Positions 2,930-15,911 of a DNA stretch of 34,437 nt are shown one piece after another. The notes below the pieces were generated by a model. It was not told where the DNA came from. It worked only from the letters and a program-made list of their open reading frames with translations, and ran no database searches. This DNA comes from a virus, in the IMG/VR virus record IMGVR_UViG_3300021365_000054, positions 1-34,437 of that record; one strand, written 5' to 3'. Numbering within the stretch: the stretch's first letter is position 1; each line of letters opens with the position of its first letter. Both the position numbers and the translations under genes were made by a program.

Positions 2930-3199
2930 ATGGCGATTACTAAAACCGAAGTATTACAACGATGCGAGACCTATCCTGCATTGGACCCAAGTGCAGAGGC
3001 TACGACTAACGAAGGCAATCCCCGATTGATGGTTGTGATGGAGATCACCTTTGACGATGCAGACGATGCTGAGTTGCCAGCGGTTTCTAATCATGTCACT
3101 CATTTAAGTCGTTATGACTCTGACGGCAATCCCACGGATGTGTCTGGTTACGTTCAGCTAGTTCAAGACATCTGCGCGGCGGTCTGGACTGATGACTGA
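2930..3199 (+). CDS. Small acidic protein after the tail fibre
   Basis: This 89-residue protein starts 2 bases after the fibre stop codon, and GGAGA in the last fibre codons acts as the ribosome binding site. It is rich in Asp and Glu, has no membrane segment and no motif I recognise. Position directly behind an S74 fibre and translational coupling suggest a tail-associated or fibre-assembly role, but that is inference only. It overlaps the next small gene by 8 bases. Confidence 0.75.
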   Translation: MAITKTEVLQRCETYPALDPSAEATTNEGNPRLMVVMEITFDDADDAELPAVSNHVTHLSRYDSDGNPTDVSGYVQLVQDICAAVWTDD

Positions 3200-8246: not shown

Positions 8247-8286
8247 GAAGAAGGCAAACAACAAGTCGAAACAAAACGGAGCAGTT

Positions 8287-12388: not shown

Positions 12389-12769
12389 TTATCGTTGTGT
12401 TTCATGTGAAACATTTTGACCCTCTATCAAGAAAAATTCGGTCTGGTCTTCTTGTAGGCATTCTTCCCAATCTCTATCAGATTCATCAATTGCCAAACGG
12501 AAATTATCAATATATTCCCATTCGATGCTGCAATAACTGCAACCAACGTGCTCAATTTCGATGGTTTCATCGTCATCAGACGTAAAAAGGCAAATGCCAC
12601 AATCGCCATCCGTCACCAACATGCGAGGCCAGCCGCCGAAGTTTTCCGGGCCGTCATCTGAGCTGTAATGCCAACGGACATCAAAACTAAAAGTTTGAGA
12701 CCAGTTTATTAGCTCGTTTTCATCTGCAAACCCGAAATCTTGCAATAACTCTTTTGTTGCTTTCTCCAT
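12389..12769 (-). CDS. Acidic accessory protein, 126 residues
   Basis: The start at 12769 is preceded by a near-perfect AGGGAGGAAAC site. The protein is very acidic, with clusters such as TSDDDETIEIEH and IDESDRDWEECLQED, and has a short cysteine cluster (GDCGICLF and GCSYCSIEW) that could bind a metal. It has eight tryptophan/tyrosine-rich positions in the middle. Early-expressed acidic proteins in phage accessory regions are sometimes DNA mimics or anti-defence factors, but there is no direct evidence here. It heads the leftward operon that also makes the 59- and 30-residue proteins. Confidence 0.75.
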   Translation of the reverse strand: MEKATKELLQDFGFADENELINWSQTFSFDVRWHYSSDDGPENFGGWPRMLVTDGDCGICLFTSDDDETIEIEHVGCSYCSIEWEYIDNFRLAIDESDRDWEECLQEDQTEFFLIEGQNVSHETQR

Positions 12770-14370: not shown

Positions 14371-14399
14371 TTGACAAAGTAGAATGCCCCCTGTAAAGT
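14371..14399 (+). promoter_or_regulatory. Sigma-70-like promoter of the ribozyme-containing operon
   Basis: TTGACA (14371-14376), 17-base spacer, TAAAGT (14394-14399). It is followed by the leader TCATCAA...ACGGAGC, the same order as before the genes at 15037 and 15513. It is the likely start of the transcript containing the hammerhead ribozyme. Confidence 0.7.
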
Positions 14400-14433
14400 G
14401 TACTCATCAAATCAACGAAACGGAGCGGGAAGA

Positions 14434-14625
14434 ATGGAACAACAAATTTTAGAAACAATCGAAAATGCTTTAATCGGCAGAATGGCGAAAGAAGCAGGAG
14501 TTCAACCGTTTCAGATGAAGTCCATGATTATGAGATGCGAAGAACTCAAGCAGTATTATAAAGAGGTCCGGAGCGTTGCAATTAAGGATCTAGCGGAAAA
14601 CTTCCGAAAAACTGAGGCGGCTTAA
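14434..14625 (+). CDS. Small helical protein upstream of the ribozyme
   Basis: ATG 14434 follows CGGAGCGGGAAGA. The 63-residue protein is almost wholly helical and basic, with GRMAKEAGVQPFQMKSMIMR resembling a small HTH-like or helix-hairpin region and a final charged helix (DLAENFRKTEAA). No family is recognised. Its stop codon lies in the loop of a hairpin, and a hammerhead ribozyme starts 12 bases downstream, so its mRNA should end at 14641 after self-cleavage. Confidence 0.7.
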   Translation: MEQQILETIENALIGRMAKEAGVQPFQMKSMIMRCEELKQYYKEVRSVAIKDLAENFRKTEAA

Positions 14626-14634
14626 ACACCGCCT
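14615..14634 (+). other. Hairpin over the stop codon, just before the ribozyme
   Basis: AGGCGG (14615-14620) pairs with CCGCCT (14629-14634) around an eight-base loop that contains the TAA stop. There is no T-run, so it is not a classical terminator. Two bases later the ribozyme begins. After cleavage the upstream RNA would end seven bases beyond this stem, which could shield it from 3' exonucleases. Confidence 0.55.
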
Positions 14635-14636
14635 TC

Positions 14637-14686
14637 GGGTCTACCAGTTCGAGACTGGTACTGATGAGGCCAGAAAGCCGAAACCC
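14637..14686 (+). ncRNA. Type III hammerhead ribozyme
   Basis: All core elements are present in order. Stem III is GGGU (14637-14640) paired with ACCC (14683-14686), including the required A15.1-U16.1 pair. The cleavage triplet is GUC (14639-14641), with cutting expected after C14641. Stem I is a perfect seven-pair hairpin, UACCAGU (14642-14648) with ACUGGUA (14654-14660), loop UCGAG. CUGAUGA fills 14661-14667. Stem II is GGC (14668-14670) with GCC (14677-14679), loop CAGAAA. GAAA fills 14680-14683. Stem III is the open stem, hence type III. It lies between two small genes. The RNA produced for the downstream gene keeps its ACGGAGC site. Confidence 0.93.
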
Positions 14687-14703
14687 AAAACGGAGCAACA
14701 AAC

Positions 14704-14967
14704 ATGGAACTAGAGCAAATCAAAATTATTCGAAGCTACAGAATCAACAGCGGCTCAACTTTGGACCCTAAGTGGTCAGATTGGGCGGTTGATATAAGCG
14801 CCCCCGTTTCGAATCCGGTAGGGGTTGCAAATGTTATTGCTCAATTCAACGAAGCGATAGCGGAGGCTAAATACTTTAACGCTCAATATAGGCTCCAAGT
14901 TGGAATAATTGAGGATGGGGAGCGAGTTGTTGAGGTTGACGGCGAAGCGGTATTATTGGCCGCGTAA
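14704..14967 (+). CDS. Small protein downstream of the ribozyme
   Basis: ATG 14704 has ACGGAGC 7 bases upstream, itself five bases after the ribozyme. The 87-residue protein looks like a mixed alpha/beta fold: a beta hairpin (IKIIRSYRINSGS, WAVDISAPV), one helix (NVIAQFNEAIAEAKYFN) and a final beta hairpin (YRLQVGIIEDGERVVEVDG). No family is recognised. Its mRNA should carry a 5'-hydroxyl end capped by stem I of the ribozyme if cleavage occurs, which may change stability or translation relative to the upstream gene. Confidence 0.7.
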   Translation: MELEQIKIIRSYRINSGSTLDPKWSDWAVDISAPVSNPVGVANVIAQFNEAIAEAKYFNAQYRLQVGIIEDGERVVEVDGEAVLLAA

Positions 14968-15512: not shown

Positions 15513-15911
15513 ATGAGCGCACAAGAAAAGCAAGATTTTTGGATTCGGTCAAGCAACATACAGAACCACGTTGACCACATCGCCGAAACTTTGCGGAATG
15601 GTATGACCTTCGAGGATGCCGGTATTGATCACGAGGAGAACGGGTGCGAACTAGACGACATGATTAGCGGCTTCGACTGGTTGCAAGATGCCCTAGACAT
15701 GGAGTTCACCGTCTCAAGCAATGGCGACTTTTTAGGCGCTAGAATCTTGGTTGCCTTCGGCGGCCCTAATATCTGGGTTGATACTCGATGGTGCAAGGTT
15801 GACGGGTTTTGGTGGGGTGATTCGGCTTCGGCTGAGTTCGTCGACTCAATGGACATTCACGGCGCTTGCCAAGAATTGTTCGAGTGCAGTCGAATGTTTG
15901 AGTGCAGATAA
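15513..15911 (+). CDS. Acidic accessory protein, 132 residues
   Basis: ATG 15513 follows ACGGAGC. The N-terminal half is helical (FWIRSSNIQNHVDHIAETLR) and the middle has an acidic stretch (DHEENGCELDDMISGFDWLQDALDM). The C-terminal half is beta-rich with many Trp (GGPNIWVDTRWCKVDGFWWGD) and ends in a Cys-containing helix. It resembles antirestriction-type or other early phage proteins only in composition: small, acidic, Trp-rich. Expression from its own promoter suggests an early accessory function. Confidence 0.7.
   Translation: MSAQEKQDFWIRSSNIQNHVDHIAETLRNGMTFEDAGIDHEENGCELDDMISGFDWLQDALDMEFTVSSNGDFLGARILVAFGGPNIWVDTRWCKVDGFWWGDSASAEFVDSMDIHGACQELFECSRMFECR

Follow-up and report, generated by a model that had tools for sequence, protein, structure and literature searches.

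The hammerhead of the engineered element RiboJ is the type III ribozyme of sTRSV, and the hairpin added to it lies 3' of the ribozyme. The cassette combines a hammerhead with a hairpin of 23 nt and sits directly before the ribosome-binding site, where cleavage gives the mRNA a defined 5' end (PMC7536230). In Escherichia coli, RiboJ increases transcript abundance about 2-fold and protein abundance 2- to 10-fold (PMC6206723). In phages, Perreault et al. proposed in 2011 that hammerheads flanking genes segment transcripts (PMC3088659). Those ribozymes are intergenic, belong to types I, II, and III, and lie beside small, non-constant phage genes. Gene-flanking hammerheads of an Agrobacterium tumefaciens prophage cut both in vitro and in E. 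coli (PMC3088659). The same paper describes HHphage of haloviruses HF1 and HF2, a hammerhead in an early operon, 13 nt before a start codon, for which a mapped 5' end is no more than 3 nt from the cut site (PMC3088659).

Here we describe a hammerhead in a 34,437-nt stretch of viral DNA from an IMG/VR virus record (the window), the genes of which include those for terminase, portal, major head, and tape measure proteins by a PHROGs-based search. The ribozyme is intergenic, and it is on the same strand as the small phage genes that adjoin it. The features of the junction are as follows.

14371-14399, + strand: promoter-like site before gene 1 (TTGACA, 17 nt, TAAAGT), from a consensus scan
14434-14625, + strand: gene 1, encoding a 63-aa protein upstream of the ribozyme, from its open reading frame
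14615-14634, + strand: 7-bp G+C-rich hairpin over the gene 1 stop codon, from the minimum free energy (MFE) fold
14637-14686, + strand: type III hammerhead ribozyme, from sequence reading, Rfam, RNAfold, a scanner, shuffles, covariation, and a core scan
14637-14640 (GGGU) and 14683-14686 (A15.1 and CCC), + strand: stem III, read from the sequence
14641, + strand: C17, read from the sequence
14641-14642, + strand: predicted cleavage site, from hammerhead chemistry
14642-14648 (UACCAGU) and 14654-14660 (ACUGGUA), + strand: stem I, read from the sequence
14661-14667, + strand: core CUGAUGA, read from the sequence
14668-14670 (GGC) and 14677-14679 (GCC), + strand: stem II, read from the sequence
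14680-14682, + strand: GAA, read from the sequence
14687-14703, + strand: A-rich leader with the Shine-Dalgarno (SD) sequence GGAG at 14692-14695, from sequence reading
14704-14967, + strand: gene 2, encoding an 87-aa protein downstream of the ribozyme, from its open reading frame

The layout is like that of RiboJ in that the hammerhead is directly before an SD sequence and start codon, with 17 nt between the end of the ribozyme and the gene 2 ATG. However, RiboJ is engineered and has its hairpin after the ribozyme, whereas the phage hairpin is before it. HHphage is also shortly before a start codon, but it has a variant core (PMC3088659), whereas the window copy combines the consensus core with an upstream gene and hairpin. 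Type III hammerheads of retrozymes, viroids, and satellites have the same topology and core as the window copy. However, those are repeats or are on circular RNA, whereas the window copy is a single one in a phage operon. The window has no tandem or dimeric hammerheads bounding a circularizing unit, as in retrozymes and viroid-like RNAs. With a single ribozyme present, formation of a circular RNA by the window copy was rejected.

The ribozyme at 14637-14686

The core CUGANGA, the GAA, the A15.1-U16.1 pair, and H17 are all present. Stems I, II, and III (7, 3, and 4 bp) surround the core, and stem III is open. An earlier note on this DNA had described a complete type III hammerhead here, and all stems and core residues are indeed as it described, in the order for an open stem III. 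When the 50-mer was folded alone with RNAfold, the hammerhead was both the MFE and the centroid structure (-14.9 kcal/mol). In a 111-nt context, the MFE structure was the hammerhead plus the 7-bp hairpin just upstream, and the centroid was without stem III. The z-score of the folding energy was -1.68, which is unremarkable alone. The evidence for a ribozyme is its core, topology, and conservation, rather than this z-score.

A search of the whole 34,437-nt window with Rfam at gathering thresholds returned no match. In a permissive search of 201 bases, HH_III (RF00008) matched over its full model length with 32.3 bits and an E value of 1.6e-5. The earlier note had suggested Infernal with Rfam models as a check, and the outcome is divided: the HH_III match is real, but its score is below the gathering cut-off of 48.5 bits, which is a curation threshold and not a structural feature. 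Despite the sub-threshold score, the type III assignment stands because it is carried by the covariation and core conservation of the relatives.

We also used our own scanner, which covers all three hammerhead topologies. It found one hammerhead in the whole window, at 14637-14686. A reverse-strand pattern match at 12556-12579 fits none of the topologies in the scanner and was rejected as a hammerhead. Among 600 dinucleotide-preserving shuffles of the window there were 33 minimal matches, two of which were as strong as the window ribozyme. A fourth pair of stem II is a C.A mismatch in the window and in the related contig L002, and C-G in most relatives. The element at 14637-14686 is a genuine type III hammerhead and a member of an already known kind.

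Conservation and genomic spread

Covariation was assessed in 85 distinct viral matches to a pattern in which pairing within the stems was not required. Stem I pairs 1.2 to 1.6 form in 87 to 89% of these, compared with 41 to 52% when the partners were shuffled. For stem II pairs 10.2 to 10.4, the values are 88 to 95% and 44 to 77%. Several pair types occur at each stem position, which means that compensatory changes are present. In 51 bacterial sequences, matches to this pattern were mostly due to chance (the same stem I pairs form in 49 to 67%). For a separate core scan, the stem and loop-closing bases were fixed and GGGUC, CUGANGAG, and CGAAA were left free. Apart from N7 (C in 16, T in 5, and A in 1), the catalytic residues were intact in 22 of 22 distinct contexts, and loop II had six variants. 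N7 is the hammerhead core position that accepts any base (PMC3088659).

BLAST of the window ribozyme region led to the cultured phage NV1, and when the consensus of ribozyme and leader was the query, only 19-base matches to cultured phages were returned. In three cultured Pseudomonas phages (NV1, UFV-P2, and Rembedalsseter), the same first gene is preceded by a type III hammerhead, and these three ribozymes differ from one another only at N7 and in the loops. Like the window, they have the type III hammerhead, SD sequence, and start codon in that order, with about 12 nt from ribozyme to start. They differ from the window in their stem sequences, a GUA cleavage triplet, and their position in the leader of a first gene. 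In NV1 (L266:975-1040), gene p01 is annotated from 980, which is within the hammerhead and near its H17 position. Its true start is likely the in-frame ATG at 1040, because the UFV-P2 annotation has an ATG at 1205, right after the hammerhead at 1141-1193. UFV-P2 also has a type I hammerhead between later genes (L275:3282).

In a first census, by a topology-neutral core scan of viral contigs, the scanner assigned 84 matches to type I, 24 to type III, and 1 to type II, some duplicate matches included. (A second scan targeted type III and is unusable as a census.) Therefore, type III is not rare in phages, and the view in the earlier note that it is unusual there is not supported. Prophage hammerheads of all three types flanking genes had also been published already (PMC3088659 and PMC7761336).

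The near-identical subfamily of the window copy (subfamily A) occurs in 29 contexts, 13 to 22 nt before a start codon. Its members precede 18 unrelated downstream families and follow nine upstream protein families by single-linkage BLAST, which is a rough grouping. Such a distribution of one near-identical type III subfamily sets these ribozymes apart from those of 2011 as described in PMC3088659. For type III and type I hammerheads alike, 74% had an SD sequence and start codon no more than 60 nt downstream, compared with 19% of random positions, with simple open reading frames as gene calls here and in the hairpin controls below. A Watson-Crick contact between loops I and II is absent in subfamily A, which makes rapid cleavage at low Mg2+ uncertain. 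Other phage type III hammerheads have this contact in 47% of cases, compared with 18% when shuffled. In type III hammerheads outside subfamily A, for example those of L145, L152, L158, L179, and L181, loops I and II contain covarying complements (GCC/GGC, GCT/AGC), a kissing contact resembling the pseudoknots described in 2011.

What precedes a given gene is exchanged between phages. The window gene at 15513, which has a promoter-like header, is 82% identical to an L079 gene behind a type III hammerhead. The L023 gene family has a type III header in L023 and promoter-like sites in L037 and L050, and the L050 and L019 gene families each have a type III header in one phage and a type I header in another. 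In the L037 gene family, L037 has a type III header and L082 has a scar.

Some contigs have several hammerheads. L032:2298-8545 has ten of type I in about 6.3 kb, approximately one per gene gap and mostly with the same stem I (GTAATA..TATTAC). Seven are present in L077 and five in L099. Neighbors with the same stem I, of the L032 kind, could in principle excise and religate gene-length RNA circles. L110, L139, and L176 each have three type III hammerheads before different genes. In L037:647-1021, a type III hammerhead is followed about 290 bases on by one of type I, with one gene between.

At the junction itself, L002 has the same ribozyme as the window with a different gene behind it. Identity between the two is 91% over gene 1 DNA and 94% over the ribozyme and leader, and from the start codon it is 48%, which is approximately chance. 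The earlier note had also proposed a search of related phages, and this cut both ways. After gene 1 in L003 and L004, only GGGTCTAC remains, and a type I hammerhead follows the next gene. There is a scar in L082 as well, and L005 to L008 have no ribozyme after gene 1. The genes persist in these phages, and the core is kept in the remaining copies. These scars and losses with the genes intact indicate that the ribozyme is an accessory, dispensable element. The upstream hairpin is kept in L005 to L008 even so, and it may therefore have its own role. The scar TTCGGGTCTACACAGGAGAAGAAG is identical in L003 (just past the gene ending at 3192) and L082, where it precedes different genes, and it is apparently a ribozyme remnant after an internal deletion. 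The scar GGGTCTAC (L003/L082) was rejected as a trans-cleavage substrate because it keeps only the UAC of stem I.

Hairpins and leaders at hammerhead junctions

Relatives of gene 1 (86 to 94% identical) are present in seven viral contigs, and the gene had no match in PHROGs or among cultured phages. No relative of gene 2 was found in viral contigs. Promoter-like sites are no more numerous in the region than in shuffles, and the one at 14371-14399, which we infer to be the promoter for gene 1, is not significant alone. The hairpin at 14615-14634 ends within 3 nt of the ribozyme. It was rejected as a terminator because the + strand has no T run. The leader AACGGAGC precedes start codons at 14419, 14689, 15022, and 15498, and it is also present at 8275. 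It follows a promoter-like site at 14419 and 15498 and the ribozyme at 14689.

Among phage hammerheads, those of type III start at a median of 28 nt past the upstream stop codon, with a strong hairpin in the gap. Those of type I start at a median of 1.5 nt past the stop codon, with no hairpin. Hairpins at type III junctions are at -8.7 kcal/mol, compared with -5.1 kcal/mol at the remaining stop codons of those contigs (n = 47, Wilcoxon P = 4e-6). For type I junctions, there was no significant difference from other stops (-1.6 versus -1.8 kcal/mol, n = 67). The idea was formed on about 18 junctions. The hairpin excess was found in subfamily A (n = 15, P = 0.003) and also in type III outside it (n = 52, P = 2e-4), where most of the junctions came from a later scan. 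A signal from one subfamily only was therefore rejected.

The two topologies would distribute their stems differently. After a type I cut, the upstream message would carry stems II and III at its 3' end, whereas after a type III cut, stems I and II would stay with the downstream message, at its 5' end. Because a type III cut would leave no ribozyme stems upstream, the upstream message would need a hairpin of its own. This suggests that the upstream message ends in a hairpin with either topology, by different means.

Proposed role and alternatives

From its sequence, 14637-14686 is likely to be an active type III hammerhead that serves as a processing header between cistrons. It probably self-cleaves after C14641 and splits the transcript that starts before gene 1. 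RNA polymerase would start at the promoter-like site of gene 1 and read through, and the ribozyme would then fold and cut. The gene 1 mRNA would end in UUCGGGUC, with a 2',3'-cyclic phosphate on C14641, 7 nt past the hairpin. The gene 2 mRNA would start with a 5'-OH on U14642, followed by stem I, stem II, and a short, open, A-rich SD leader. Hairpin caps at both new ends should slow decay and might thereby stabilize both messages. The gene 2 leader would be constant, and in that sense insulated, whatever lies upstream, so the module could replace a promoter when genes shuffle. Against a processing header, 4 of 18 consensus-conforming hammerheads did not cleave in the 2011 tests (PMC3088659). 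Also, stems II and III of the window copy are short, at 3 and 4 bp.

Cleavage could instead be real but lower expression, with either the downstream fragment (5'-OH) or the upstream fragment (cyclic phosphate) being degraded so that one gene is limited. In Bacillus, RNase J1 does target the 5'-OH products released by the glmS ribozyme. Even so, we consider this unlikely, because hairpins at both new ends and an SD leader right after the ribozyme fit stabilization better, and because expression in E. coli increases with RiboJ, which has its hammerhead at the equivalent position. The presence of the same 50-nt sequence between unrelated genes might suggest that it is mainly a patch of homology for gene-cassette recombination, with catalysis incidental or lost. 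The similarity of the window and L002 does stop at the start codon (94% to 48%), and the scars and losses among relatives would also fit. However, a patch would not spare catalytic bases while its loops drift, and with N7 alone varying in the 22 contexts of the core scan, this explanation seems quite unlikely.

Cleavage might also be switched by a ligand, a protein, or the ribosome on gene 1, with the stop-codon hairpin as part of the switch. We think this very improbable. The hairpin is over the gene 1 stop, so ribosomes ending gene 1 would open it, and it is within 3 nt of the ribozyme. However, there is no aptamer-like extension, stems I and II are minimal, and the subfamily copies vary little. 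Furthermore, the MFE structure has no alternative fold that sequesters the core, although the centroid is without stem III. Finally, the likelihood of a chance match or a dead relic is close to negligible. The sub-threshold Rfam score would be in keeping with either, but the two equal matches in 600 shuffles refute chance, and near-identical copies are present in 29 contexts with the core invariant where examined.

The processing header that we favor is not the new regulatory system that the earlier note had supposed, since hammerhead segmentation of phage transcripts was already proposed in 2011. What appears to be new is the comparative pattern: header swaps, the association of hairpins with ribozyme type, and one subfamily before 18 families. 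Neither the hairpin association nor promoter/ribozyme swaps were found in the portions of PMC3088659 that were covered, and because the literature covered was open-licence, an earlier report may exist elsewhere. As a more tentative proposal, phage type III hammerheads may be RNA insulators of natural origin that can be swapped between genes. They would stand in for a promoter at the RNA level and provide any gene inserted behind them with a fixed, hairpin-capped leader. The upstream hairpin would be added because, unlike with type I, the upstream message is left without ribozyme stems.

These comparative regularities are more interesting than the ribozyme itself. They predict that upstream cut ends are hairpin-capped by means that differ with ribozyme type and that ribozyme headers replace promoters, and they suggest a purpose for such phage ribozymes. 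Because NV1 and UFV-P2 have a similar layout, these predictions could be tested in laboratory infections.
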